Shown: in pieces, positions 24,401 to 63,256 of the stretch
How positions within the stretch are numbered: the first letter of the stretch is position 1
Layout of the letters: every line of letters starts with the position of its first letter
Assembly: GCF_000226295.1 (NCBI RefSeq)
Contig: NC_016024.1
Span: 1,595,501-1,659,500 of the forward strand
DNA: 64,000 nt
Direction: 5' to 3'
From: Chloracidobacterium thermophilum B
Lineage (GTDB): Bacteria; Acidobacteriota; Blastocatellia; Chloracidobacteriales; Chloracidobacteriaceae
Program-made: the position numbers and the translations under genes
The notes under the pieces: generated by a model
Databases searched by the model: none
What the model saw: only the letters and a program-made list of their open reading frames with translations
Told to the model about the DNA's origin: nothing

Positions 24401-25090
24401 TCACCTGGCGGTGGTCAGCAGACCGATGCCGACTTCTCCGGTTGACCAGGCCAGACGGTAGGCATTTCCTTCCTTGGTAATCGTGACGGCGGCTTCGTAG
24501 GGCTGTCCCGTAGGCGATACGCCCTTGGTGCGATGGGTGGCGGTCAAGCCGCCGCCGCCGTAGAACTGCTCGCGCCCGATTCCCCCTTGCATGTCCAAGG
24601 TTGTCCATCCACCATCGCCGCTGCCGTCGGCTTTGAGGGCATAGAGCGCAACACCGGGCTGCTCACCATAGCCGACCACGAGCACCTGCCCGGCCAGAAT
24701 GCCGACGCCGGTTTCGCCATTCGTCCAGGCGAGGAGATACACCTTGTCGCCGAGTTTGCGGATGCCCAGTTTGCCACGGTACATCCGGCCGTCAGGATTC
24801 GTGCCGGTCGTTTCGTAGGTTCCTTCGATGCCGTCAGTCAGGGACTGCGGGACAGCCGTTTCAGTCAGAATGCGCCCCTGCGCCTGCCCGTTTGTCCACC
24901 GGCCGCGCAAGGTCCCGTTTTCATTGCGATACACAGCCACCCCTGGCACCCGCCCCTTGGAGGTATAGCCCACCATCAGGTATTCAGTGCGCCCGGCATC
25001 CTGGGCGCGCGCCTGCCCTTCCGGCCGACCGACGCCGGCCGGCAGCAGCCACAGACATAACCCCAGGAACACCCAAAGCCCGGAACGCAT
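24401..25090 (-). CDS. Secreted repeat protein inserted between nuoJ and nuoK (unknown function)
   Basis: A 229-aa protein with a clear signal peptide (MRSGLWVFLGLCLWLLPAG) and an exported body made of repeated units. The recurring pattern is hydrophobic-L-x-W-x-x-GExGxGxL, seen as YLLAWTNGETGVGIL and YRLAWSTGEVGIGLL, with related VGYxxxxGVAxYxxxxxGxxxGxWT segments. I do not recognise a characterised family. The ATG at 25090 lies 4 bp from the nuoJ stop, and the stop is 18 bp from nuoK, so it is transcribed within the complex I operon. It has no cysteines or metal motifs suggesting an electron-transfer role. Confidence 0.8.
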   Translation of the reverse strand: MRSGLWVFLGLCLWLLPAGVGRPEGQARAQDAGRTEYLMVGYTSKGRVPGVAVYRNENGTLRGRWTNGQAQGRILTETAVPQSLTDGIEGTYETTGTNPDGRMYRGKLGIRKLGDKVYLLAWTNGETGVGILAGQVLVVGYGEQPGVALYALKADGSGDGGWTTLDMQGGIGREQFYGGGGLTATHRTKGVSPTGQPYEAAVTITKEGNAYRLAWSTGEVGIGLLTTAR

Positions 25091-25094
25091 GGCG

Positions 25095-25592
25095 TTACTC
25101 CTTCTCACGTTTTGCCAGGTGCAAAGCACCAACCACAGCCAGCAGAATCAGCACCGAGGTCAGCTCGAACGGCAGCAGATAACGGGTCATGAGGTTTTTG
25201 CCGACCCGCTCGACCGTACCGGCTTCGCCGGAAGGCGCGCGCTCACCCGTCATGCCCCAGACGGCAAACCAGACCTGCACCGTGAATGCGAGTCCCAGTG
25301 GCAGCGCCAGCCAGACGAGAAAGCGGTGCCGTGGCGGACGTTCTTCATCGGCGCGTACATTGAGCAGCATGATGACGAACACGAACAGCATCATAATGGC
25401 CCCGGCATAGACGACAATCTGTGCCGCGCCGATAAACTGCGCGCCCATCAGAACGTAGAGCGCCGACAGTCCGACAAAGGAAGTAATGAGCGCAAAAGCG
25501 CCGTAGAGCGGGTTGCGCAACAGCACCACCGACACGGCGCCACTGAGCACCAGGGCCGCAAAACCGACGAACAAAAGCTGCTGAAAGGTCAT
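25095..25592 (-). CDS. nuoJ: NADH-quinone oxidoreductase subunit J
   Basis: A 165-aa membrane subunit with five helices. Family landmarks are RNPLYGAFALITSFVGLSALYVLMGAQFIGA (cited in parts: RNPLYGAFALI and YVLMGAQFIGA) and QIVVYAGAIMMLFVFVIMLLN. The ATG at 25592 (MTFQQLLFVGF) is preferred to in-frame codons upstream that give a charged, non-family N-terminus. It begins the nuoJ-[secreted]-nuoK-nuoL-nuoM series and lies 165 bp downstream of the CBS-domain gene. Confidence 0.94.
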   Translation of the reverse strand: MTFQQLLFVGFAALVLSGAVSVVLLRNPLYGAFALITSFVGLSALYVLMGAQFIGAAQIVVYAGAIMMLFVFVIMLLNVRADEERPPRHRFLVWLALPLGLAFTVQVWFAVWGMTGERAPSGEAGTVERVGKNLMTRYLLPFELTSVLILLAVVGALHLAKREKE

Positions 25593-29226: not shown

Positions 29227-30516
29227 ATGCCCCTTACAAGACGCCAATTCGTTGTCGGTTCGAGTCTGACAGCGGCCTATGCCGCCAGCGGTGTGGCCCG
29301 CATCGGGGGACTGGTTTACGGCCAGACCAGTGGCGTCAATGACATTCTTGTGGTGCTCTACCTGCGCGGTGGAATTGACGGCCTGAATTTCGCGGCACCA
29401 GTCAATGAGCCGAACTATGTGGCTTCGCGGTCCAATCTCCGCCTGCGCGAAAGCGGCACGGACGCCGGACTGCCACTCGCGAATCCCATCGGGAACGGGA
29501 TTGACTTCCGGCTGCACCCAAGCGCCCGGCCGTTGCTTGATGTGTATCAGGCGGGCGCGCTGGCGATTGTTCATGCGGTAGGGTTGACGGTAGCCAACCG
29601 GAGCCACTTTGACGCCCAGAGCCTGATGGAAGGCGGTGTACCTTCCTCGCGCCAGCCGACCGGGTGGCTTACGCGCCATATCACCACTTCCGGCGGCCAG
29701 AGCGGGGCGATCCCCACGGTGGCGGCATCCAACAGTCTGCCCGGTTCGTTGATTGGCAGTGGCAGCGCCATTGCGATGCCCAACCTGACCAACTTTGCCC
29801 TGCCGGGCGATCCGACCATCTTTCCGGCGATGACGCGGATGTACAGCGGCACGACGCCGCTCCACATGGCTGGCTTCAATGCCATCAGTGCCATCCAGAA
29901 CGTCAACAATGCCATTGGGCGGCCGCCAACGGGAGGGGCACTCCCGGCCTACAGCCCGGAAAATGGGGCAAGCTACGCCCAGCCGGAAACGCAGACCGGC
30001 TCGCTGGGCAGTGCGCTGATCACCATTGCGCGGCTCATCAAGCTCGACATCGGCCTGCGGATTGCAACGCTCGATGTCGGCGGCTGGGACACCCACAACA
30101 ACCAGGGACTGACCACCGGCACGTATGCGACGAATGTGGACTCGCTGGCGCGCAACCTGCTGGCGTTTTACAACGACATGGTGCGCTATCGGCAGCGGGT
30201 CACGCTGGTGGCGATGAGCGAGTTCGGCCGGACGCTGCGGGAAAACCAGAGCGGGGGCACTGACCACGGACGGGCATCAATTATGCTGGTTCTGGGCGGC
30301 GCAGTGAATGGCGGAAGAATGTATGGGACGTGGCCAGGTCTGGCCAGCCAGGCATTGGACGGCGGAGACCTGGCGGTGACGACGGACTACCGGCAGGTGC
30401 TGGCAGAGATTGTCGTCCGGCGCCTGCGGAATCCGCAGTTGAGTGCGGTATTTCCAGGCCTTGGGAACTATCGTCCGCTGGGTATCGTCCAGGGCAGCGA
30501 TCTGCCCACCACATAA
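29227..30516 (+). CDS. DUF1501 family protein, Tat-type signal
   Basis: A 429-aa protein beginning MPLTRRQFVVGSS, a twin-arginine signal, followed by the DUF1501 core: VVLYLRGGIDGLNFAAPVNE, FRLHPSARPLLDVYQAGALA, VGLTVANRSHFDAQSLMEGG, LDVGGWDTHNNQG, MSEFGRTLREN and GTDHGRASIMLVLGGAVNGG. The fold is related to alkaline phosphatase/sulfatase enzymes; the Asp/His-containing segments resemble their metal ligands. It is 25 bp downstream of DUF1800, with AAAGGAG before its ATG. It probably folds in the cytoplasm and is exported with a cofactor. Confidence 0.92.
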   Translation: MPLTRRQFVVGSSLTAAYAASGVARIGGLVYGQTSGVNDILVVLYLRGGIDGLNFAAPVNEPNYVASRSNLRLRESGTDAGLPLANPIGNGIDFRLHPSARPLLDVYQAGALAIVHAVGLTVANRSHFDAQSLMEGGVPSSRQPTGWLTRHITTSGGQSGAIPTVAASNSLPGSLIGSGSAIAMPNLTNFALPGDPTIFPAMTRMYSGTTPLHMAGFNAISAIQNVNNAIGRPPTGGALPAYSPENGASYAQPETQTGSLGSALITIARLIKLDIGLRIATLDVGGWDTHNNQGLTTGTYATNVDSLARNLLAFYNDMVRYRQRVTLVAMSEFGRTLRENQSGGTDHGRASIMLVLGGAVNGGRMYGTWPGLASQALDGGDLAVTTDYRQVLAEIVVRRLRNPQLSAVFPGLGNYRPLGIVQGSDLPTT

Positions 30517-30520
30517 CCAG

Positions 30521-30615
30521 AGAGGGCGGGCGTCACCCTGGGAGGGCGGGCGTCCCGCCCGCGTGAAACAGGCGGGCGGGACGCCCGCCCTCCCAAGGAC
30601 GCCCGCGCTCCCAGG
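30521..30615. repeat. GC-rich inverted repeat, second copy of the GGGAGGGCGGGC family
   Basis: A perfect 22-bp inverted repeat (30541-30562 and 30572-30593, GGAGGGCGGGCG in one arm) with a 9-base loop, flanked by partial units on both sides. It fills the gap between the convergent DUF1501 and TolC genes, so it may act as a bidirectional terminator despite having no T-run. Confidence 0.88.
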
Positions 30616-30616
30616 T

Positions 30617-32167
30617 TTAGAACTGCATCGTGGCGAGGCGGAGTGCGGCCCGCGCCTGTTCGTACTCCGCCTGCACGTCAATCAACTTGTTGCGGGCTTC
30701 CGCTGTGGCGCGTTCACGCTGGTTGACCAGAAACAGCGAGCTGTCACCGAGCATGAAACGTTGGTTTTCGCCCCGCTCCAGAACAATCGCAGCTTCAAGT
30801 TCGCGTTTCGTGGCGAGATACCGCTGCCAGGCGGTATTGATGGCCGAGGCGGTGTCGTAGATTTCGGTCATAATCTGCTGGCGCAGCGTCCGTTCTTCGA
30901 GATCGAGCTTCTGGAGCTTCAACTGCGCCTGGGCAATCCGCCCATCGGCCGTCCGCTGCCGCAGAGGGAGTTCAAAAATCACGCCGGCTTTGAGCGTCGT
31001 TCCAATGCCCCCGGGCCCGGCATCGCGTCCCGGCACAAGCGCCAGGTCGAGAATGGGACGCCGTTGGTTGCGGGCCAGCTCAAGGTCCAACCGCACCGTG
31101 TCCTTCAGGACAGCAATGGCCTGCAACTCCGGGCGGCGCTGAAGCGCCAGCGCAATGGCATCGTTGATTTCAGCCGCCGTGATTTCCGTTGGCTCAAGTT
31201 GCAGGCTGACATCGAGTACACTGCCTTCGTCTGGCGGCGGCTGGGTCGTGACATCATCCAGCCACAGGGAAAGAGAAAGCTTGAACTGCGCCTTCTGGAA
31301 GTCACGCTCGGCTTTGGCCAGTGCCGCCTGGCGACGCTGCACTTCCTGCTCGGCTTCGACGGCGTCAATAGGCGGGAGGTCGCCGACAACTGTACGCTGC
31401 CGGATGGCGTCGTTGCGGATTTCAGCCAGTTTGAGCAGGTTGCGCGCCACATCCAACCGGCGCTTGGCGGCGACCCAGTCCCAGTAGTCATCGGCCGCCT
31501 TGCGGAACAGCTCCAGGCGGGTTTGCACGACGGCAATATCCGCCTGGGATTCGCCCAGAAAAGCCTGCCGCTCCCCGACGGATTTTTCATTGATGCGGAA
31601 ATCCCGGAAAAGCGGCACTTTGAGACCAAACTCGTAGGTGCCGAAATCCCCGGTGGCAGAAAGCGGAGACTTGGTCGCGCCCAGATTGAGATTCGAGGAC
31701 GCAAAGAATTTGATCCCGGAGCGGGTCAGGAAGTTGACTTCCGTCCCAATGCCAAAGGCCTCCGATACTTTTCCCCGTTTGGAGGCGCTGTTGTAACGCA
31801 GGTAGTCAGTCGAAATGGACAGGATGGGATCAAAAGCCCCCTGTTTCTCAATGCGCTTCGCCGTGGCGACACGGCGTTCGATGACGGAGCCACGCAGTTT
31901 TGGGTGCTGGTTCTCAATGATTTGAAAAACACGCTCCAGAAGCAGCGGCGGCGCACCGCCCGGGCCGGGAGTTGGTGCACCGGTGCGGCGTCCCGATTGC
32001 GGATCAGGTCCGGCATGGGCGACGGCAGCAGCCAAGCGGCGTTCATCCTCGGTTGGGGACACAACGATACCCGGCAGGGGGGCCTGCGCCCAGGCCGCTG
32101 ACGCACAGCCGCCGCCCAGCCATATCCCCAGCCAGGCCACAGCGCCAAACCACAGCTTACTTGTCAT
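30617..32167 (-). CDS. TolC-family outer-membrane efflux protein
   Basis: A 516-aa outer-membrane channel protein. A signal peptide with possible lipobox (LGGGCAS) is followed by an extended Pro/Gly linker, then long amphipathic helices of the OEP type with two repeats (for example FRKAADDYWDWVAAKRRLDVARNLLKL, cited in part as DDYWDWVAAKRRLDVA, and RQQIMTEIYDTASAINTAW). The ATG at 32167 overlaps the 3' end of the HlyD gene by 11 bp. It is the third gene of a leftward ABC-HlyD-TolC cassette and would form the exit duct of a type I exporter. Confidence 0.9.
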   Translation of the reverse strand: MTSKLWFGAVAWLGIWLGGGCASAAWAQAPLPGIVVSPTEDERRLAAAVAHAGPDPQSGRRTGAPTPGPGGAPPLLLERVFQIIENQHPKLRGSVIERRVATAKRIEKQGAFDPILSISTDYLRYNSASKRGKVSEAFGIGTEVNFLTRSGIKFFASSNLNLGATKSPLSATGDFGTYEFGLKVPLFRDFRINEKSVGERQAFLGESQADIAVVQTRLELFRKAADDYWDWVAAKRRLDVARNLLKLAEIRNDAIRQRTVVGDLPPIDAVEAEQEVQRRQAALAKAERDFQKAQFKLSLSLWLDDVTTQPPPDEGSVLDVSLQLEPTEITAAEINDAIALALQRRPELQAIAVLKDTVRLDLELARNQRRPILDLALVPGRDAGPGGIGTTLKAGVIFELPLRQRTADGRIAQAQLKLQKLDLEERTLRQQIMTEIYDTASAINTAWQRYLATKRELEAAIVLERGENQRFMLGDSSLFLVNQRERATAEARNKLIDVQAEYEQARAALRLATMQF

Positions 32168-39221: not shown

Positions 39222-39272
39222 CGGTTGGCACAACAGCCCCTCGCACATTCCTTTCAAGGAGTTTTATCCGGT

Positions 39273-39749
39273 ATGCACAACCTGAAGCGATTCCTGACCC
39301 TCTGCGCCGCTGTGGCGGCCGGCGTACTGTCTGCCTGTGTTGTCAAAGACAACGTTCCTCCACCGCCGCCGATGAAGCCCAAGGAAGAACAGGTCAAGAC
39401 GGTTGAACCAACCAAACCCACGACGGAAACGAGCGCCAAGCCGGCGGAACCGGCCAAGCCGGCCGAAGGAGCGGAAGACCCGCTGATTGCCAAAGGGCGG
39501 GAGTTATATAACGCCAACGCCTGCGCCAGCTGCCATGGAGACAAGGGGCAGGGTGTGCTTCCCAATGCGCCCAAGTTCACCGATGCCGCCTGGCAGCAGA
39601 AGGAAAAAGACGAGGAAATCGTTGCCTCCCTCAAGGGGGCCAAGGCTGCCCAGGGCATGCCGGCCTTCAAAGGGGGTAACGGCACCGACGAAGAACACAA
39701 GGCGCTGGTGGCTTACATCCGCTTCCTGGGCAAACCGGCCGGGAAGTAA
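39273..39749 (+). CDS. Monoheme cytochrome c lipoprotein
   Basis: A 158-aa exported cytochrome. A lipobox (LSAC, Cys22) ends the signal peptide, followed by a Pro/Lys/Glu-rich tether of about 45 residues, then a class I cytochrome c domain with CASCH (residues 84-88) and axial Met129 in QGMPAFKG. A membrane-tethered electron carrier, periplasm-facing. The ATG at 39273 was chosen because it starts the lipoprotein signal and has AAGGAG upstream; the frame is open further out. Followed by a terminator and a second, related cytochrome. Confidence 0.92.
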   Translation: MHNLKRFLTLCAAVAAGVLSACVVKDNVPPPPPMKPKEEQVKTVEPTKPTTETSAKPAEPAKPAEGAEDPLIAKGRELYNANACASCHGDKGQGVLPNAPKFTDAAWQQKEKDEEIVASLKGAKAAQGMPAFKGGNGTDEEHKALVAYIRFLGKPAGK

Positions 39750-39790
39750 GCACCACCACAACCCTTTTGTCGTCGCTGACAGGCGTGTGG

Positions 39791-39831
39791 AGCCGGGCAC
39801 AAGGTCGCTGGGAGACCAAGCCCGGCTTTTA
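39791..39831 (+). terminator. Intrinsic terminator between the two cytochrome genes
   Basis: AGCCGGGC (39791-39798) and GCCCGGCT (39820-39827) form an eight-pair stem, followed by TTTTAT. It separates transcription of the first cytochrome from the second. Confidence 0.75.
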
Positions 39832-39878
39832 TCGTGCTGCATCGAAAGCAAGGTCGTCGCCAGGTTGGGGAGGTAGCC

Positions 39879-40238
39879 ATGCAGTCAAAAACGTTTGTCG
39901 CCGGGCTGGCCGGGATGGCGTTCCTGACGACACTGTTGGGTAGCGGACCGGCAACCGGACGCGCACCGGCCACGCGGGACGAAAGCGCCGGGAAGCGGCT
40001 TGCCCGTGGAAAGCGGCTTTACAACGGGGCCGGGGCCTGTGTGGCCTGTCACGGGACGGACGGGCGTCCCACCGTACCCGATGCTCCCGACCTGACAGAC
40101 GCCGACTGGCAGCGCCAACGTACGGATGAGGAACTGTCCAAATCCATTGCCAACGGCAAAGGAACGATGCCGGCTTTCAAAGGCTCACCGGCGGACATTG
40201 AAGCTCTGGTGGCTTACGTCCGGTCACTGGCCAGGTGA
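39879..40238 (+). CDS. Small exported monoheme cytochrome c
   Basis: A 119-aa class I cytochrome c with an N-terminal signal (MQSKTFVAGLAGMAFLTTLLG), heme motif CVACH at residues 54-58 and axial Met97 in GTMPAFKG. It is similar to the preceding lipoprotein cytochrome over the heme domain (both have LxDADW or FTDAAW and MPAFKG), so the pair arose by duplication. GGGGAGG precedes the ATG. It lacks the lipobox and would be soluble or anchored by an uncleaved signal. Confidence 0.9.
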   Translation: MQSKTFVAGLAGMAFLTTLLGSGPATGRAPATRDESAGKRLARGKRLYNGAGACVACHGTDGRPTVPDAPDLTDADWQRQRTDEELSKSIANGKGTMPAFKGSPADIEALVAYVRSLAR

Positions 40239-40267: not shown

Positions 40268-41317
40268 ATGGTTGAAGGTCATCTGGAAAATCCACACGAC
40301 CGCTTCTTCAAGGACCTGCTCGGCCGGCCCGGCGTCGCTGCCGACTTTCTGGCGAATTACCTGCCCCCGGAGTTGCTTGCCCACCTGGATGTCACGGACC
40401 CGGAGGCGCTGTCCGGCACCTTTGTGGACGACGACTTGCGGGAGCACCTTTCTGACGCCCTGTTTCGCGTGCGTGACCGGACCGGAGCGGCGGCGCTGGT
40501 GTACGTCCTGCTCGAACACAAAAGCACCCCCTGGCCGTGGACGCCGCTTCAGCTTTTGCGGTACGTCGTCGCCATCTGGGAACAGGCGCGACGCGAAGGC
40601 CACACCTCCCTGCCGGTCATCATTCCGGTGGTGTTCTATCACGGGCAGACGCGCTGGAACGTGGCCACGGACGTTGCCGGGCTGGTGGCACACCACGACG
40701 AGCCGGCGCTGCGCGCCTGGACGCCCTCTTTCCGGTACTGGCTGTGTGACCTGTCCCGCTTCAGCCCGGAAGTCATCAAAGGCGGGGCCCTGTTGCGGGC
40801 TGGCTTATCGGTGTTACGTTATGTCTTTACCGATGAGCTGCCGGAGCGGCTGCGGGAGATTTTTCAGCTCATTGCCCTGCTGGAGCAGCAGAGTGTGACA
40901 GAATATCTGGGAACGGTGCTGCGGTATCTGGCCGCTACCGGAACCCCCCTTCGGTGGCAAACCGTCAAGACAGCCGCCAGGGAAGCCTTGAAGGAGCAGG
41001 CAGAAGCACTTATGAAAGCGCCATTTGTGACAGAAATCTGGCAGGAAGCCTTGGCACAAGGTCTGGAGCAAGGTCGGGAGCAAGGCCACGCCCAAGGGAG
41101 TGAACAGGGCAAACGGCTCGAAGCCCTGCACATTGTTCTGCGCCAACTCCGGCGGCGCGTCGGGCCGCTTCCGCCTGAGCTGGAGTCCACGCTCACGACC
41201 TTTCCCCTGGAAACCCTGGAAGCCCTGAGCGAGGCGCTGCTGGACTTCCAGACGCAGGCGGAAGCCTTGGCCTGGGTGCAGCAGGCACAGCACCAGACAC
41301 CGCCTCGTGCCGAATAA
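40268..41317 (+). CDS. Rpn family recombination-promoting nuclease/putative transposase
   Basis: A 349-aa protein of the Rpn/YhgA group. The N-terminal PD-(D/E)XK nuclease core has HDRFFKDLLGRP, LFRVRDR and the catalytic-like YVLLEHKST followed by LQLLRYV. The C-terminus has Gln/Gly/Glu repeats (GLEQGREQGHAQGSEQG), typical of the family, and a DUF4351-like helical end. Family members are multicopy, cleave DNA and raise recombination, and need no transposon ends; I find none here. Solitary, 30 bp after the second cytochrome. Confidence 0.88.
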   Translation: MVEGHLENPHDRFFKDLLGRPGVAADFLANYLPPELLAHLDVTDPEALSGTFVDDDLREHLSDALFRVRDRTGAAALVYVLLEHKSTPWPWTPLQLLRYVVAIWEQARREGHTSLPVIIPVVFYHGQTRWNVATDVAGLVAHHDEPALRAWTPSFRYWLCDLSRFSPEVIKGGALLRAGLSVLRYVFTDELPERLREIFQLIALLEQQSVTEYLGTVLRYLAATGTPLRWQTVKTAAREALKEQAEALMKAPFVTEIWQEALAQGLEQGREQGHAQGSEQGKRLEALHIVLRQLRRRVGPLPPELESTLTTFPLETLEALSEALLDFQTQAEALAWVQQAQHQTPPRAE

Positions 41318-42746: not shown

Positions 42747-43784
42747 TTATAACACCCAGTTGAAGACGTATCCCACGATCAAAATGCCGGTGGCGACGAT
42801 GCCAATGAAGGCAGCTATCAGCCTGACTTTGAGCACCTTGCGCAGAATCACCATCTCTGGCAGGGACAACGCGATGACGCTCATCATAAAGGCCAGCACT
42901 GTGCCGACGGCTGCCCCCTTGTCCAGCAGTGCCTGAACCACCGGAATGATCCCGGCAGCGTTGGTGTACATCGGAACACCAAGCACAACCGCCAGCGGCA
43001 CCGACCACCAGGCGGATTTGCCCATGAAGCTGGCCATGAAGTCCTGCGGCACATAGCCGTGAATGCCAGCCCCAATGGCAATGCCGGCCAGAATATACGG
43101 CCAGACCTTCCCGACGATGTCGCGCACACTTTGAAAGCCGGCGGCGAGACGTTCACCAAAGTCAACCTCCACGGCGGTGAACTGGGCTTCAGCTCTGGGA
43201 ATGTCGCGCACCCAGTCTTCCAGATACGGCTCCATGTTCAACTTGCCGATGATCAAGCCAGCCACGATGGCCACGGATAAACCAAGTCCCAGATACAGCA
43301 GGGCGATTTTCCAGCCCAGCATGCCAAACAGGAGCGTCAGGGCAACCTCATTGACCATCGGGGCGGCAATCAGGAATGAGAATGTCACACCAAGCGGCAC
43401 CCCGGCCTGTAAAAAGCCGATAAACAACGGCACGGCTGAACACGAACAGAAGGGCGTCACAATTCCCAGCAAAGCCGCCATGACATTGGCCAGCCCCTCT
43501 CTCCGACCAGCCAGCAGGGCGCGGGTTCGCTCAGGCGTGAAATAGGTATTAATCACCCCCATCACAAAGACAATGCCCGTCAGTAGCAGCAGCACCTTGG
43601 GCGTGTCGTAGAGGAAAAATTGCAACGCCGCACCAAGGTGGCTTTGGCGGTCAACCGGCAAAGCAGCCACTACCACTTCTGAAAGGGGCTGCAAGGTTTG
43701 ATACAGGCCCCACCACAGCAGGGCCGCCAGGACAAGAAAGATTCGCGGGTGGTGTTGTGTCCAACGCACAGCCAGGGCACTCAT
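42747..43784 (-). CDS. YraQ/ArsP-family permease
   Basis: A 345-aa membrane permease with about eight helices. The diagnostic segment PFCSCSAVPLFIGFLQAGVPLG with its paired cysteines is present, along with FLIAAPMVNEVAL and GVPMYTNAAGIIPV. Members export organoarsenicals, or are implicated in metal and sulfur-compound handling. The ATG at 43784 is preceded by GGGGGAGAG; another ATG 15 bp upstream is less well placed. It follows the SigZ-like gene by 85 bp and is followed closely by the thioredoxin-like gene. Confidence 0.9.
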   Translation of the reverse strand: MSALAVRWTQHHPRIFLVLAALLWWGLYQTLQPLSEVVVAALPVDRQSHLGAALQFFLYDTPKVLLLLTGIVFVMGVINTYFTPERTRALLAGRREGLANVMAALLGIVTPFCSCSAVPLFIGFLQAGVPLGVTFSFLIAAPMVNEVALTLLFGMLGWKIALLYLGLGLSVAIVAGLIIGKLNMEPYLEDWVRDIPRAEAQFTAVEVDFGERLAAGFQSVRDIVGKVWPYILAGIAIGAGIHGYVPQDFMASFMGKSAWWSVPLAVVLGVPMYTNAAGIIPVVQALLDKGAAVGTVLAFMMSVIALSLPEMVILRKVLKVRLIAAFIGIVATGILIVGYVFNWVL

Positions 43785-43869
43785 GGCTCTCTCCCCCATT
43801 GTTCTCGGCAGCACAAAATCACTGGCTAGCAGCCATCTGTCAGGGAGACGAACAAGGTGGCAAAAGGAT

Positions 43870-44427
43870 TCAGGATGCAGCCGAAGGTGACACGTGGCAA
43901 CAGACGCGCCCGGACTCATCAAAGCGCACCTGGCAGTTCTCCACCAGGCGGTCGCGTAATCGTTTTCTGGCGCGCAGCAGGCGCGACTTGGCGGCCGGCA
44001 ATGTCAGACCATGGGCTTCGGCGTAGGCGCGCACCGTTTGCCCCCGAAGATCGCAGGCTTCAATAATGTGCCGGTCCTCGGCTTCCAGTCGCAGCAGGTT
44101 GTGGCTGAGACACGCCTCCAGTTCATCTACGGGACGCCGTTCCACAACCGGTGCCGCCGCCAGGTGCTCCGGCAAGGACTCAACCGGCTTGGACAGACGC
44201 GCCCGGTCAATCACGGCATGACGGGCGACCTGGAACAGCCAGGCGCGGGGATTGTCGAGCGCGCAAAACGCCTGCCCCTGCCGCAGGGCCTTGAGAAACA
44301 CTTCCTGGAGGAGGTCTTCCGCCGCGTCAGGATCGCTGGTCCGGTGTAACAGAAAAGCCAGCAGGGCTTTTTCGTATGCCTGCCAGGCATCCAGGAGACA
44401 CCCGGACGCGCTATGTGCCTGGTTCAT
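43870..44427 (-). CDS. SigZ-like ECF sigma factor with Cys-containing tail
   Basis: A 185-aa sigma-70 factor of the ECF type. Sigma region 2 is DAAEDLLQEVFLKAL and PRAWLFQVARHAVIDRAR; region 4 is HIIEACDLRGQTVRAYAEAHGLTLPAAKSRLLRARKRL (cited as LTLPAAKSRLLRARKRL). The C-terminal extension ends with NCQVRFDESGRVCCH, holding three cysteines, the arrangement seen in SigZ proteins; it may sense redox or metal. No anti-sigma factor is adjacent. The ATG at 44427 is preferred; a TTG at 44496 would translate a tandem 14-bp repeat. Confidence 0.85.
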   Translation of the reverse strand: MNQAHSASGCLLDAWQAYEKALLAFLLHRTSDPDAAEDLLQEVFLKALRQGQAFCALDNPRAWLFQVARHAVIDRARLSKPVESLPEHLAAAPVVERRPVDELEACLSHNLLRLEAEDRHIIEACDLRGQTVRAYAEAHGLTLPAAKSRLLRARKRLRDRLVENCQVRFDESGRVCCHVSPSAAS

Positions 44428-44437
44428 GATTTTCGTA

Positions 44438-44465
44438 CCACGGTTTTTTGGCCACGGTTTTTTGG
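44438..44465 (-). repeat. Tandem 14-bp repeat just upstream of the sigma factor gene
   Basis: Two perfect head-to-tail copies of CCAAAAAACCGTGG (minus strand), ending 10 bp before the sigma factor ATG at 44427. It lies in the divergent region with the GDCCVxC gene. Fourteen is not a multiple of three, which argues for a regulatory or leader site rather than coding sequence. Confidence 0.8.
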
Positions 44466-44642
44466 CATTGTTGGCTGGCGTTGACGGCTCTGACAACCAG
44501 ACTTTGACAGCTCTTGAGGCGCAATGGCATCCTCACTGACTTTGGGCCAGTGGCTTTGGCCAACCATGACCACTATGGAATGTGGTCGCTTTGGATGTCC
44601 AGTCAAGGTCACGCCCCCTCCCCAAGTACAGGATGCGCGGCC

Positions 44643-44858: not shown

Positions 44859-44916
44859 CTCTGGACTGGCTTCGCCCGGACGGCCTTTGCGTCCGGCGCG
44901 CGACAACCTGAACCCT

Positions 44917-45750
44917 ATGGAAACCAAAAACAGCTCCCAGACTTCCACGGCGTCCGAAAAGCCCAAGCGATCGGAGCTGCGCGAGTTCATCGAGATGATC
45001 ATCACAACGCTCATCATGGCGTTGTTTGGCATCACCTTCGTCGTCCGTTCGGTCAATGTCCCGACCGGCTCGATGAACAACACCATCTATTCCGGCGATT
45101 TTCTGCTCGTCAACAAGTTCATTTTCGGCTACGAGGGCGGTATCCCCCTGGACGGCTTCACCCCCCACCGCCCCATCCGGCGGGGCGACATCATCGTGTT
45201 CAAGTTTCCGCAAAGCGAAGACCAGAACTACGTCAAACGGGTCATCGGACTGCCGGGTGAGACCATCGAGATTCGGGGGCAGCGCGTGTACATCAACGGG
45301 CAGGAACTCCCTGAAACGCGCGTCATTGCCGAAAGCGACCTGGAAGACAGCGGCCGGCTGAACATTCTCGAAGAACATCCCACCGCCGGGGCGCAGTGGA
45401 AGGTCTATTACCGTCCGGGATCAGACTTTGAGTATGAAACCCAGGATGCGGAGCCGCTCCCGGAACTGCTCCTGCCAAGCGGACGCTACCGCGACTACAA
45501 AAACGAACCGCACTATGGCATCGGGCGGCCGTTCAAGATTCCAGAGGGTTGCTACTTCGCCATGGGGGACAACCGCGACAACAGCCTCGACAGCCGCTAC
45601 TGGGGGCCCGTTCCACGGGACTACGTCATCGGGCGGCCGCTGTTTGTCTATGCCTCGTTCGACCCCAATCCGCAGGCTTCGCTGGGCGAACGGCTGGGCT
45701 CCTTCTTCTCCAAGGGGCGCTGGAAACGGCTGGGGTCGCTGGTGAAGTAG
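44917..45750 (+). CDS. lepB: Signal peptidase I
   Basis: A 277-aa membrane serine peptidase that removes Sec and Tat signal peptides. One membrane segment (about 25-45) precedes the catalytic Ser52 in PTGSMNNT, and the general-base Lys107 is in YVKRVIGLPGE; box E is GDNRDNSLDSRYWG. The central insertion is moderately long. The ATG at 44917 is preferred because the family N-terminus follows it, although the ribosome-binding site is weak. It lies 125 bp upstream of acsF, separated by an inverted repeat. Confidence 0.95.
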   Translation: METKNSSQTSTASEKPKRSELREFIEMIITTLIMALFGITFVVRSVNVPTGSMNNTIYSGDFLLVNKFIFGYEGGIPLDGFTPHRPIRRGDIIVFKFPQSEDQNYVKRVIGLPGETIEIRGQRVYINGQELPETRVIAESDLEDSGRLNILEEHPTAGAQWKVYYRPGSDFEYETQDAEPLPELLLPSGRYRDYKNEPHYGIGRPFKIPEGCYFAMGDNRDNSLDSRYWGPVPRDYVIGRPLFVYASFDPNPQASLGERLGSFFSKGRWKRLGSLVK

Positions 45751-45874: not shown

Positions 45875-46975
45875 ATGATTGCCACGGAATCCGTCATTCA
45901 GGAGACGAAAGCGGCGGCGGCAGACAAAAGTCTCATCAGTCCGCGTTTTTATGTCACGGATTACAAGAAGATGAATGCCCTGCGGTTCGATCACATGGCC
46001 GAAGCGTTCAAGGCCATGCACAAACGCTTTGCCGATGATCCGAACAAGCATTTCTTCAAACGGGACGACGACCCAGACTTCGAGCAGGATTTCTCCCATC
46101 TCCCGCCGTCGTTCAAGGACTTTCTCATTCGTGGTTGTTTGGGTGAGTTTTCAGGGGCGCTGCTGTACAAGGAAATTGCGGACCGCATCGAAGACCCCAT
46201 CCTGAGCGACACCTACCGGCTGATGGCGCGCGATGAAGGACGGCACAGCGGCTTCATCCGGCTGGCGATGCGCGATATCAATGCCGATCTCGACCTTCAG
46301 ATGCTGCAAGGCGAAAAGGAATTCGTCAGCATGCATCCGAAAATCATCCTCTACACCACGTACCTTTCGGAAGTCATCGGCTACTTCCGCTACATCAACA
46401 TCTATTCCCACCTCGAAGCCCATCCTGAATACCGTTACCATCCGATCTTCAAGTACTTCGGTGGCTGGTGCCAGGATGAACTCAAGCACGGCGACTTTAT
46501 CGGCCTTCAGCTCGAAGCCCAGAAAAACATCTACCTGGACGGTGGCATCAACCGGTTGCTCATTCGCTTCTTCTCACTGGCCGTCTATGTGACGATGTGG
46601 TTGCGCGATCTCAAGGCGCAGGACTTTTATGCGTCCATCGGCCTGAACTGGCGGGAATATGACCTGAAGGTAATCCGGGAAACGAATGCCTATGCGCAGC
46701 GCGTGTTCGGGCTGCGGCTCGACGTGGACAATCCAAAGTTCATCCGCATTCTGGATCGCATGGCGGCACGTTACACGGAGATGACCAAACGTGAAGCCGA
46801 AGGCGCTGGCAAGCTGTCCCTCCTGCCACTGCAAGCGGCGATGACGATTGATTATCTGCGTTTGTTTGCCATGAAAGTGCGCACCGATGCGCCGCCGCCC
46901 ATCCCCGAATACCCGGTGGCGCCAGTCATCAAGGGCTTCGCCAGCAAGTACAAAGGCCAGCCAGCCATGGCCTGA
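45875..46975 (+). CDS. acsF: Mg-protoporphyrin IX monomethyl ester oxidative cyclase (aerobic)
   Basis: A 366-aa di-iron enzyme that uses O2 to close the fifth ring (ring E) in (bacterio)chlorophyll synthesis. It contains the AcsF/CHL27 core: EFSGALLYKEI (Glu91), the first DExxH motif DEGRH (Asp120, Glu121, His124) and the second DELKH (Asp201, Glu202, His205). Upstream of the core are RFYVTDYKKMNALRFDHMAEA and the partial Glu/Asp-rich DDDPDFEQDF. The ATG at 45875 is chosen for the family N-terminus and a nearby GAGG. Marker of aerobic phototrophy; the following gene, 11 bp away, is very likely co-transcribed. Confidence 0.95.
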   Translation: MIATESVIQETKAAAADKSLISPRFYVTDYKKMNALRFDHMAEAFKAMHKRFADDPNKHFFKRDDDPDFEQDFSHLPPSFKDFLIRGCLGEFSGALLYKEIADRIEDPILSDTYRLMARDEGRHSGFIRLAMRDINADLDLQMLQGEKEFVSMHPKIILYTTYLSEVIGYFRYINIYSHLEAHPEYRYHPIFKYFGGWCQDELKHGDFIGLQLEAQKNIYLDGGINRLLIRFFSLAVYVTMWLRDLKAQDFYASIGLNWREYDLKVIRETNAYAQRVFGLRLDVDNPKFIRILDRMAARYTEMTKREAEGAGKLSLLPLQAAMTIDYLRLFAMKVRTDAPPPIPEYPVAPVIKGFASKYKGQPAMA

Positions 46976-46986
46976 GGGCCATTTCC

Positions 46987-47973
46987 ATGCCCACCGTCCT
47001 TGGCATTGCCATTCTGGGCAGCGGGCGCGTCGCACGCGCCCGCCTGCGCGAACTGCACGAGCGTTACGACACCCGTGTGGCCGTCGTTGCCTCCCACGAT
47101 TTCAATCGGGCCTACGAACTGGCATTCCCGATTGCGGCGGCAGCCACTGAAGACTGGGAGGAAGCCATTGCGCGCCCGGATGTGGATGCCGTCATGGTGT
47201 GTTCGACCAACCCGCACCATGCCCGCATGGCACAGGCGGCAATTGCGGCCGGCAAACCGGTCAGTGTGGACTACCCGCTGGCGCTGACACTCGCCGACGC
47301 CGAACAGTTGGTTGAACAGGCCCGGGCGCGTGGCGTCGTGCTGCACGTCGAGCACATCGAGCTGCTTTCCGCCTGGTTTGAGGCTTTTCGGAAAGCCCTG
47401 CCCCGCATTGGGCGGATTCACCACATCACCTGGAACAACCTCAGCTCCCGCCCGGCAACTCCCGAAGACTGGACGTTTGACCGCGCACACGGCTTCTCGC
47501 TGTTCCAGCAGGCCAGTGTGCCCAGCCGCATCGTCGCCTGCGTGGGACAAATCACCTGGATTGAAGGCGAGGAAACGTTTTCCGATGAGCAGGGCACCCG
47601 CTTTGGGCGGCGTGCCACGCATCTGCGCTTCGGCTTCGGCGCAGAAGGCCGTGGAGACATCAACGATGTGCTCACCCGGCACGAGGAAACAGGGCCAGCG
47701 GCCGAATTACAGGCCGTGGGCGAGTCCGGCACACTCATCGGACGACAACACCGGGAGGTGTGGTACACAAACCCAGAGGGCGCAACGGAGTCCGTGCCGG
47801 TCATGCCGCGCAGCGGTCTGTTTGCCCACGACATCGCGGCGTTCCTCGACGCCATTGCCGGCCGTGGAACGCCGTATGTCTCTCTCGACCATGTACTTGA
47901 AGCTCTCCGTTTTGCCGATGCCGCCGAACGGGCAGTGAAAAGCGGTCAGCGGGTCACGCTGACATCGGACTGA
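46987..47973 (+). CDS. bvdR: Gfo/Idh/MocA oxidoreductase similar to cyanobacterial biliverdin reductase
   Basis: A 328-aa NAD(P)-dependent oxidoreductase. The Rossmann motif is GIAILGSGRVARARL, and DYPLALTLADAEQL followed by VVLHVEHIELL is very close to the corresponding segment of cyanobacterial BvdR, which reduces biliverdin to bilirubin. The C-terminal half (LYTNPEG region, GLFAHDIAAFLDAIAGRGTPYVSLD) is the Gfo/Idh substrate domain. Its ATG is 11 bp after acsF, so it is probably translated from the same message. Biliverdin reduction is inferred by similarity; another tetrapyrrole could be the substrate. Confidence in the fold is high, in the substrate moderate. Confidence 0.75.
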   Translation: MPTVLGIAILGSGRVARARLRELHERYDTRVAVVASHDFNRAYELAFPIAAAATEDWEEAIARPDVDAVMVCSTNPHHARMAQAAIAAGKPVSVDYPLALTLADAEQLVEQARARGVVLHVEHIELLSAWFEAFRKALPRIGRIHHITWNNLSSRPATPEDWTFDRAHGFSLFQQASVPSRIVACVGQITWIEGEETFSDEQGTRFGRRATHLRFGFGAEGRGDINDVLTRHEETGPAAELQAVGESGTLIGRQHREVWYTNPEGATESVPVMPRSGLFAHDIAAFLDAIAGRGTPYVSLDHVLEALRFADAAERAVKSGQRVTLTSD

Positions 47974-48032: not shown

Positions 48033-48389
48033 CTAAATGGACTGGACGTAAGGCAGCAGTGCCAGGTGTTTGGCGCGTTTGATGGCCCGTGCCAGCCGAC
48101 GCTGCATAGTTGGGTTCACGCCGGTCAGACGGCGCGGCAGGATACGCTTGTTGTCGCCGATGAACCGCTCAAGCAGCTTCACGTCCTTGTAGTCAATGTA
48201 GTCAATCTTGGCTTCCAGCAGCGGACACCGTTTCTTGCGCCGTCCCACCCGGCGGTTGCCACCGGGACGGTTGCCACTACCGGCAGCGCGGCGGGCAACG
48301 GTACTCCCCGCTGCACCCGCAGGACGCCGTTCCGGGCTGGATGTCGTTCCGGTGACGACTTCGGTTGTTTCGGTTGTTTCGTCTGACAT
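48033..48389 (-). CDS. rpsR: 30S ribosomal protein S18, with long N-terminal extension
   Basis: A 118-aa S18. The conserved core is the last 65 residues ([24 protein letters not shown], cited as [15 protein letters not shown], and [32 protein letters not shown], cited as [21 protein letters not shown]). The first 50 residues are a Thr/Gly/Ala/Arg-rich extension absent from typical 75-aa S18 and likely disordered. Encoded alone; rpsF and rplI are not adjacent, and only one cysteine is present. Confidence 0.93.
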
Positions 48390-48488
48390 ACGCCTCTTTT
48401 TCTCCCTCAATAAATATACCGGCTGCCGGCAGCAGCCTTGGACACAAGTGCCGCCGGGTCCGGTATGGATTAATGAAGACTGGAATCC

Positions 48489-61598: not shown

Positions 61599-61952
61599 TC
61601 AGACCGGCGCGGGGGCGTCACCGGGGAAATGGCGTTGCCCGGCCAGCGCCGTGCCCGCACTCCCTTCCTGTCTGCCCGCTGGCGAACCAGCCTTGACGGT
61701 CAGCGGACGCACAATCAGCCAGACGCCTTCGCTTCCGACCACCTGCACCGCTTCCCCACGCGCAACAGGAAATGGAGAGCGGGCGGCCCACAACTCTCCG
61801 GCCAGGCAGACAAAGCCCTGTGGGGCCAGGGCGGTTACAGTCTGCCCGGCAACGCCCAGGCCGGCCGCCGCAAATCCGGTGCGCTTGTTTTGCCAGCCGC
61901 GCCACCAGCCGGATGCCCCGCGCCTACAGACGGAGAAAAATGTCTTCATCGA
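61599..61952 (-). CDS. Short NfeD C-terminal (OB-fold) domain protein
   Basis: A 117-aa protein with the NfeD OB-fold signature GVAGQTVTALAPQGFVCLAGELWAA followed by GEAVQVVGSEGVWLIVRPL (both cited in part; the match is to the G-x-x-G...G-x-V-x-x-G-E-x-W-x-A pattern). It lacks the protease and membrane regions of full NfeD. The proposed start (ATG at 61952, MKTFFSVCRRGASGWW) overlaps the upstream gene's 3' end by 29 bp; a later start is possible. It falls in an open frame that is otherwise easy to overlook. Partner of a stomatin-like protein in other bacteria; none is here. Confidence 0.6.
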   Translation of the reverse strand, partial: SMKTFFSVCRRGASGWWRGWQNKRTGFAAAGLGVAGQTVTALAPQGFVCLAGELWAARSPFPVARGEAVQVVGSEGVWLIVRPLTVKAGSPAGRQEGSAGTALAGQRHFPGDAPAPV

Positions 61953-62931
61953 GCTTGGCCAGCCGGAACCGGACATCCCGGAACTCAATCCGCTGCTTGA
62001 ACTTGCCGTTTTCATACAGTTCCTTGCGCATGGGCACGAGCAGGTTCTGTACCGGGCGAAAATCATAAAACGACTCCCGAAACCGCAGCGGCTTGTCGCC
62101 CGGCGTGGGCTGCACTTCATATTCGAGGTGCAGGATACGGTAGGTCTGGCTGCTGATGAAGTATTTCGTCTTGGTGCCGTCGCGATGGGTCAGTTCCAGG
62201 CCAATCGTATCAATGCCCATGATGCGCTCGCCGGGAACGCGCGTCACCGTCGTTCCGTCTTCCTTGTAGCGCAAAAGCGCAAAGTAATCGTGCTTGAGCG
62301 AGGCCAGAAAGGTCGCCTGGGCTTCCGGGGTCAGGGTGATGGACTGGCGGTTTTGTGCCGCCCAGTTGGTGTAGCCGTTGAATCCAAACACCAGTTGCTG
62401 CGGTTCATCGCCCTGTGGGCTGGGAAGTTCCACCTCGATACGGACACAGTTGCGGTCAGAAGTCTCACGGCGCAGGATGTGTTCCACGATTTTGCCTTCA
62501 ATCGGCGGACGGTTGTCGTCGGTGGCAATTTTGATGACGCCTTCAAGCCGCGCATTCGTGAACACATAGTCTATGACCGGCCGGCTGCCGTAGGCATAGA
62601 TGACAATTTCAGCAACAGTTTCGCCATCCCAGGTTTCAGGTTTGTTGAGCTTGACAGCTTTGGGTTTTTCGGGCTTGGGTGTCTTGTCGCGGGCAGCCTC
62701 GTCCGGGTTGTCGCTGCGCTTCTTCCCACCGCTTTTGCCGTTCTCACCCGGTTTGCTGTTTTCCCGGGCTTTTTCTGCATCCGGCTTGGCCGGTGCTCCC
62801 GGATTCGGCGTCTGCCCGGATGGAAGCCGCCCGGCAGCCGAGCGTACCGGTGGCGGGGTCAGGGCAACAACGAAAAAGTAACTCCACAGAGCACAGAAGC
62901 AGACAAGCGTCCACCGCTGAAAACCAGGCAT
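61924..62931 (-). CDS. Exported protein with charged linker and LolA-like C-terminal half
   Basis: A 335-aa protein with a signal or anchor segment (about residues 6-24, WTLVCFCALWSYFFVVAL). A 90-residue Lys/Glu/Pro/Gly-rich linker follows, then a C-terminal domain (about 115-335) with TKYFISSQTYRILHLEYEV and FYDFRPVQNLLVPMRKELYENG. This beta-rich text is like the outer-membrane lipoprotein-sorting (LolA/LppX) fold. GGAGG precedes the ATG at 62931. Function unknown; the similarity is a judgement of pattern, not of a diagnostic motif. Confidence 0.65.
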   Translation of the reverse strand: MPGFQRWTLVCFCALWSYFFVVALTPPPVRSAAGRLPSGQTPNPGAPAKPDAEKARENSKPGENGKSGGKKRSDNPDEAARDKTPKPEKPKAVKLNKPETWDGETVAEIVIYAYGSRPVIDYVFTNARLEGVIKIATDDNRPPIEGKIVEHILRRETSDRNCVRIEVELPSPQGDEPQQLVFGFNGYTNWAAQNRQSITLTPEAQATFLASLKHDYFALLRYKEDGTTVTRVPGERIMGIDTIGLELTHRDGTKTKYFISSQTYRILHLEYEVQPTPGDKPLRFRESFYDFRPVQNLLVPMRKELYENGKFKQRIEFRDVRFRLAKLDEDIFLRL

Positions 62932-63256
62932 GTTTTTCCTCCACAAACCGTCTTTTGGGATGCCGTCGGCACGAGTCATCCCTGTTTTGCCGTCACCGTC
63001 GCATCCCAATCTCATCCGCAAACCTTACACACAACCCGCACAGCTTACACGTGCGAACCTGTCCACGTTCCATAGAAAGCACACGCGGCTGGAATCAACT
63101 TTTTCGTCCGGCGCGCCGGCAGCGTGCTGACGACGATTTGGCTTCGGCGCAGGCTGTTTACAGCCCAAAAAGATGTTTGTTTCCAGTCCGGGGGTTGCGC
63201 TATATCTGCATCACACCAGACACGTTATCCCGCTGCTCAGTCTCATTCGTCCCCCA
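62932..63256. other. Divergent intergenic region, no gene seen
   Basis: 325 bp between the start of the leftward exported-protein gene and the rightward methyltransferase gene. It is somewhat A/T-richer than average around 63020-63100. I find no convincing promoter pair, RNA gene or repeat. Confidence 0.6.

Follow-up and report, generated by a model that had tools for sequence, protein, structure and literature searches.

An acsF gene pair of Chloracidobacterium thermophilum with a biliverdin reductase-family partner that lacks the catalytic arginine

In Chloracidobacterium thermophilum B, the aerobic cyclase gene acsF and the biliverdin reductase (BVR)-family gene that follows it form a real, conserved gene pair. 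By its sequence, the product of the second gene (the partner) falls with the BVRs of the Gfo/Idh family rather than with its sugar dehydrogenases, and it is most likely a co-expressed reductase with a substrate that is perhaps tetrapyrrole-like. We give a probability of roughly one half to the reading that the partner is a non-canonical NAD(P)H reductase of the BVR branch, restricted to one order, which would predate phototrophy and would have been coupled secondarily to an acquired acsF. Its clade, found here in one order only, is without the arginine reported to be indispensable for biliverdin reduction; the hosts are bacteria without a recognised heme oxygenase, and the gene adjoins the aerobic cyclase gene in all eight of the bchL-bearing genomes examined. 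Taken with the published bilin-reductase cluster of Chloracidobacterium, itself devoid of heme oxygenase, this makes testable the question of which open-chain tetrapyrrole, if any, such bacteria make and reduce. A bilin role, if true, would be notable in the absence of a recognised heme oxygenase; inactivity on tetrapyrroles would be a warning against naming acidobacterial BvdR homologues biliverdin reductases. No published account of the pair was found among the literature matches listed on Chloracidobacterium, acsF, biliverdin reductase and vinyl reductases. The term 'bvdR' is absent from the available parts of two Chloracidobacterium papers (PMC8245765 and PMC12816986), and the available part of PMC10608806 describes cyanobacterial BvdR with no mention of Chloracidobacterium or Acidobacteria.

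The gene pair and its surroundings

The window, a stretch of 64,000 nucleotides, corresponds to positions 1595501–1659500 of contig C1 in a genome of 3,695,372 bases on two contigs. It contains 54 predicted ORFs, 17 of which were scanned against Pfam in addition to acsF and the partner. The original prediction that acsF and a BvdR-like gene lie 11 nt apart on the same strand was confirmed (Table 1). A promoter and terminator scan of the window was uninformative, with no promoter-like sites (0.9 expected) and three terminator-like sites (2.8 expected).

Table 1. The acsF gene pair, its flanking genes and the codons of key residues (window positions)
Feature	Position	Strand	Size	Remarks
Signal peptidase I gene	44887–45750	+		PF10502; upstream flank, outside the pair
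acsF	45875–46975	+	366 aa	TIGR02029 (NCBIfam), 335.5 bits vs. cut-off 192.5
Intergenic gap, acsF/partner	46976–46986	+	11 nt	
BVR-family Gfo/Idh oxidoreductase gene (partner)	46987–47973	+	328 aa	Without the BVR catalytic arginine
Tyr96 codon (BVR Tyr102)	47272–47274	+		DYP replacing Gfo/Idh EKP; invariant in 11/11 orthologues
Val178 codon (place of BVR catalytic Arg185)	47518–47520	+		V, L or I in 11/11 orthologues
Arg181 codon (BVR Arg188, propionate ligand)	47527–47529	+		Invariant in 11/11 orthologues
Ribosomal protein bS18 gene	48033–48410	−		PF01084; downstream convergent flank, outside the pair

Elsewhere in the window, ARAGORN located a tRNA-SeC with anticodon tca (1825–1919, −). The ORF at 40268–41317 (+) encodes a YhgA-like putative transposase (PF04754) with DUF4351, and 39225–40238 (+) holds a tandem of two small c-type cytochromes, each with a PF13442 match. 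The frames of an ArsP-type permease gene and a sigma-70-family factor overlap at 42747–44496 (−), and three ORFs (30443–32101, +; 61924–63021, −; 24401–25132, −) have no Pfam match at E 0.001.

Kinship and key residues of the partner

The partner contains a Rossmann domain (PF01408, 80 bits vs. a cut-off of 24). Its top match in the PDB is the Synechocystis biliverdin reductase (5b3t, 1.2e-32, 116.6 bits), with the next at 64.5 bits (best 60 of 86 matches), and a profile of nine orthologues retrieves the same protein at 153.3 bits, followed by 78.5 bits; the label 'BvdR-like' given in the original prediction is thus right by sequence. Eight NCBIfam families are listed for the partner, all far below cut-off and all sugar/inositol-type or unnamed Gfo/Idh models; the best is inositol 2-dehydrogenase (78.1 of 355 bits), and the listed matches include no BVR model. 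There is no FrhB/BciB-type or Ycf54 match among the eight Pfam families listed (E up to 1). A maximum-likelihood tree of 26 rows splits the 11 orthologues and the Synechocystis BVR from 14 other Gfo/Idh rows with support of 100/99, and an N-domain tree of 28 rows that includes rat BVR places 13 rows on the BVR side and 15 on the other (100/98), so that grouping with sugar or inositol dehydrogenases, the outcome that would have spoken against the predicted kinship, was seen in neither. With two BVRs only in the two trees, one cyanobacterial (Synechocystis) and one mammalian N-domain (rat), and with several long branches flagged, the exact placing of the orthologues among the BVRs is uncertain. 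The motif DYP is present in 11/11 orthologues, and EKP in 12/12 other Gfo/Idh proteins read from the same genomes, weaker family matches without a locus being left out of this count. Profile, tree (100/99) and motif (DYP vs. EKP) are the grounds on which the partner sides with the BVRs and not with the sugar dehydrogenases. A homologue with 76% identity occurs in a record of Chloracidobacterium sp. CP2_5A; a tblastn search of plasmids with the partner protein matched 54 records, all below 60% identity, the 15 listed among them lying at 23–31%.

The BVR residue numbering was checked (18 of 18 tested residue letters agree), and the alignment with BVR is free of gaps between the GF motif and the place of Arg185. 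The places of BVR His84, Tyr102, His129, Trp168, Thr169, Arg188 and Asp287 are kept in all 11 orthologues, and that of Ser184 holds serine in eight and alanine in three. The place of Arg167 is aspartate throughout, Lys237 is not kept and, at the second stacked bilin site, Thr169 is retained in all 11 and Arg246 lands in an alignment gap. Arg185 is kept in none of the 11 orthologues, being replaced by V, I or L. In the available text of the work on Synechocystis BvdR (Takao et al., 2017; PMC5309722), Arg185 is the proton donor to biliverdin and is essential, with kcat/Km falling to about 0.25% in R185A and R185K; it is described there as completely conserved among BVR homologues, with rat Arg171 and human Arg172 stated to be its equals, and Arg188 as the residue that binds the proximal biliverdin by its other propionate. 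Because the partner is without this proton-donating arginine, bilirubin formation is probably not its main job. Another residue, such as the invariant Arg155, could stand in for Arg185. An AlphaFold model built from a two-sequence alignment (mean pLDDT of 40.1) was too poor to judge such a substitute. By analogy with the Synechocystis structure paper, Tyr96 would lie at the nicotinamide and Arg181 would hold one carboxylate, and the partner would most likely transfer hydride from NAD(P)H onto an acceptor that is conjugated and bears a carboxylate.

In a post hoc look, 21 positions were found to be identical in the eight phototrophs (defined here as genomes with bchL over the cut-off) and different in all three other orthologues. 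Six of them (159, 166, 174, 179, 185 and 186; likewise post hoc) lie within the stretch that matches the BVR substrate helix and would fit a new substrate in the phototrophs. One such substrate could come from the cyclase reaction, as a product, a by-product or a damaged form, e.g. an Mg-porphyrin with a single free propionate. These changes near the substrate helix are consistent with such a role, as are the adjacency of the two genes in 8/8 genomes and the fact that one of the two arginines that bind the proximal propionates is retained, the other position being hydrophobic, which would fit one free propionate. Against it, position 178 is valine also in the three genomes without bchL and acsF, so that the loss of the arginine is not tied to the acsF link, and the cyclase, BchL and a FrhB/BciB-like protein already cover the neighbouring steps. 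We regard an action on a cyclase product as improbable.

Distribution and linkage among relatives

Some match to the partner family was found in 10/10 genomes of the taxonomic family, with an orthologue by score in nine (42–100% identity over nearly the whole length); the tenth genome (G009) holds 7e-9 matches only. The partner gene is present in 11/14 genomes of the order and in 5/396 genomes of a phylum sample, all five from the same order (threshold 1e-25, up to five candidates scored per genome, whole-genome searches confined to the phylum). A single acsF match occurs in each of 8/10 family genomes, and none of the six remaining order genomes has acsF over the cut-off, two of them (G344 and G401) giving matches of 23.8 and 22.9 bits. 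bchL is over the cut-off in 8/14 order genomes, and PF04432 is found in the same eight, adjoining bchL by coordinates. Three genomes (G008, G344 and G401; completeness 99, 95 and 87%) carry the partner gene with no match to bchL or acsF over the cut-off, and no tetrapyrrole genes were seen by eye near the partner gene in them. Because it also occurs in these three relatives, the partner is not apparently a dedicated bacteriochlorophyll gene and most simply predates phototrophy in the order; the three genomes could instead have lost phototrophy, rather than phototrophy having been gained in the other branch. Published accounts of acsF within the genus disagree: all Chloracidobacterium strains can use AcsF or BchE according to the available part of one paper (PMC8245765, 2021), and acsF is missing from most C. 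aggregatum strains according to that of another (PMC12816986, 2026). The acsF difference among strains constitutes a natural experiment.

The gene acsF adjoins the partner gene in 8/8 order genomes with bchL over the cut-off, and the predicted conservation of the linkage in relatives is borne out to this extent; seven of the eight genomes belong to one genus (Chloracidobacterium) and hence are not independent. The gap between the two genes is 1–11 nt in 7/7 Chloracidobacterium genomes and 137 nt in the eighth (G007, of genus g2), in which AcsF is 74% identical. This longer gap contains a 14-pair terminator-like hairpin, which has a T-rich tail, and a long inverted repeat that is nearly perfect (L034 1390–1535); the folding energy of the stretch is −90.6 kcal/mol (z −12.3). 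The inverted repeat is possibly a REP-type element or a small mobile one. Because of this gap and its hairpin, tight coupling of the two genes is a feature of the genus; the statement in the original prediction that the genes are clearly one operon is plausible, from spacing alone, for the seven same-genus genomes. By eye, the gene downstream of the pair differs in G007, and adjacency in 8/8 genomes together with this difference suggests selection for the link. Pairwise dN/dS values (NG86, with dS often near saturation) are 0.064–0.118 for the partner and 0.035–0.104 for acsF in six same-genus pairs, and 0.242 and 0.135, respectively, against G007; these low values indicate that both genes are maintained.

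The adjacency could also be without functional meaning, acsF having landed by chance in front of a gene already resident there, with inheritance of the pair ever since. The presence of the partner gene in three genomes without acsF over the cut-off, the hairpins between the genes in G007 and the shared genus of seven of the eight pairs all agree with such an origin; the gaps of 1–11 nt in 7/7 genomes and the retention of the pair in two genera despite a different downstream gene (by eye) argue against it. We consider chance adjacency a real possibility, if an unlikely one. In the preferred reading, of a resident reductase coupled secondarily to acsF, an acquired acsF would have come to sit directly upstream of the partner gene in the phototrophic branch, and in Chloracidobacterium the two genes are now probably transcribed together, to judge from their spacing. 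Joint transcription would most simply reflect low-oxygen co-expression rather than a second cyclase subunit. Counting against the preferred reading are the signs of selection for the link, the phototroph-specific positions near the substrate helix, the pre-PcyA cluster reported for Chloracidobacterium, the potential of another residue to replace Arg185 and a possible loss of phototrophy in the three genomes without bchL.

Tetrapyrrole context and comparison with known systems

In the bchL neighbourhood of the same genome (contig C2), bchH, bchL and bchF are over cut-off. An FrhB-family protein beside bchL is BciB-like by place and domain, with an frhB NCBIfam match below cut-off (106.6 of 331.5 bits); an FrhB/BciB-like gene adjoins bchL in all eight bchL genomes and is a candidate 8-vinyl reductase. 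The 40 kb around bchL contain 37 predicted ORFs, of which eight were scanned against NCBIfam (three of these also against Pfam), and no bilin reductase was found among these eight. Near bchF, two B12-binding radical SAM proteins (L070 4290–5678 and 5752–7170, contig C2) have BchE as their best NCBIfam match, far below cut-off (165.6 and 107.4 of 481 bits); we take them to be perhaps BchQ/BchR-type methylases, or other pigment enzymes.

To our knowledge, Gfo/Idh proteins have no one-electron carrier, which counts against their powering a cyclase. A role of the partner as supplier of reducing power for the cyclase, suggested in the original prediction, is made unlikely also by the available part of a 2026 review (PMC13297055), which lists AcsF as the one component of the cyclase in Acidobacteria and describes an assay of the purified protein with NADPH, ferredoxin and FNR. 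The same listing weighs against the partner being an accessory cyclase subunit, and the FrhB/BciB-like gene beside bchL in eight genomes (its frhB match being below cut-off) against its being a new type of 8-vinyl reductase; orthologues in three genomes without bchL speak against both. An NAD(P)H-binding fold beside acsF is what favours these two roles, which we regard as very unlikely.

Heme oxygenase (PF01126) was found in 0/14 order genomes (control genomes positive, 3/14) and the PHY domain in 0/14 (control genomes positive, 1/14). Together with the replacement of Arg185 in 11/11 orthologues, the absence of PF01126 matches speaks against a canonical heme-to-bilirubin branch; the search of the genome for heme oxygenase, which the original prediction called for, gave no PF01126 match, although some heme oxygenases diverge too far to be picked up from sequence (PMC10151467, as available in part). 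The available text of the same study (Rockwell et al., 2023) reports that a heme oxygenase is typically part of pre-PcyA clusters with V4R proteins and bilin-binding globins, that the Chloracidobacterium pre-PcyA cluster is without one, and that biliverdin was reduced by one enzyme per pre-PcyA lineage, taken from other bacteria, though poorly in the case of the pre-1 enzyme. Bilin chemistry may therefore occur in Chloracidobacterium without a recognised heme oxygenase, and because of this published cluster a bilin role for the partner retains some probability. In that case, the partner would be a working reductase of biliverdin or another bilin, fed by an unrecognised heme-cleaving enzyme, in an antioxidant bilin cycle expressed along with the oxygen-using cyclase and analogous to the cyanobacterial acsF-ho2-hemN cluster (PMC4500134, as available in part). 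Its place in the BVR clade of the tree, the retention of the places of Arg188, Tyr102 and Thr169 in 11/11 orthologues, the cyanobacterial precedent and the reported pre-PcyA cluster are in keeping with such a role; the non-arginine residue at the place of Arg185 in all 11, the roughly 0.25% of kcat/Km left in R185A and R185K, and the lack of PF01126 in 14 genomes make it unlikely. As a quite speculative extension, Chloracidobacterium might, in the absence of heme oxygenase, run a branch of bilin-like or ring-opened Mg-porphyrin compounds. In it the BVR-family protein, perhaps with the reported pre-PcyA reductase and bilin-binding globin, would serve repair, signalling or antioxidant defence by reducing a linear tetrapyrrole; the latter would come from an oxygen-dependent reaction that is not that of heme oxygenase and that possibly takes place at the aerobic cyclase or close to it.

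Among known systems, the partner resembles the cyanobacterial BvdR of Synechocystis (5b3t/5b3u/5b3v) over a near full-length alignment (25–30% identity, about 300 columns), including the YPLAL and HVEHIELL stretches and the places of Arg188, Thr169, Trp168 and Asp287. It differs at Arg185 (V/I/L), Arg167 (Asp), Lys237 (not kept) and Arg246 (in a gap), and in its setting, a genome without a PF01126 match. Mammalian biliverdin reductase A (1gcu, 1lc0 and 2h63) shares the N-domain, with EYP and H.EH.ELL, and the rat enzyme falls on the same side of the N-domain tree; the alignment by sequence is restricted to this domain, with the Arg171/Arg172 region outside the comparison. With the Gfo/Idh sugar/inositol dehydrogenases the partner has the Rossmann domain PF01408 in common, but it carries tyrosine for the EKP lysine and lies on the other side of the tree. 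The pairing itself, called unexpected in the original prediction, is less so in light of the low-oxygen-induced cyanobacterial chlAII(acsF)-ho2-hemN cluster, in which, in the available part of PMC4500134, acsF likewise lies in a cluster with a heme/bilin-side gene; there it is joined by the genes for heme oxygenase 2 and HemN, whereas in Chloracidobacterium the partner is a BVR-family protein.
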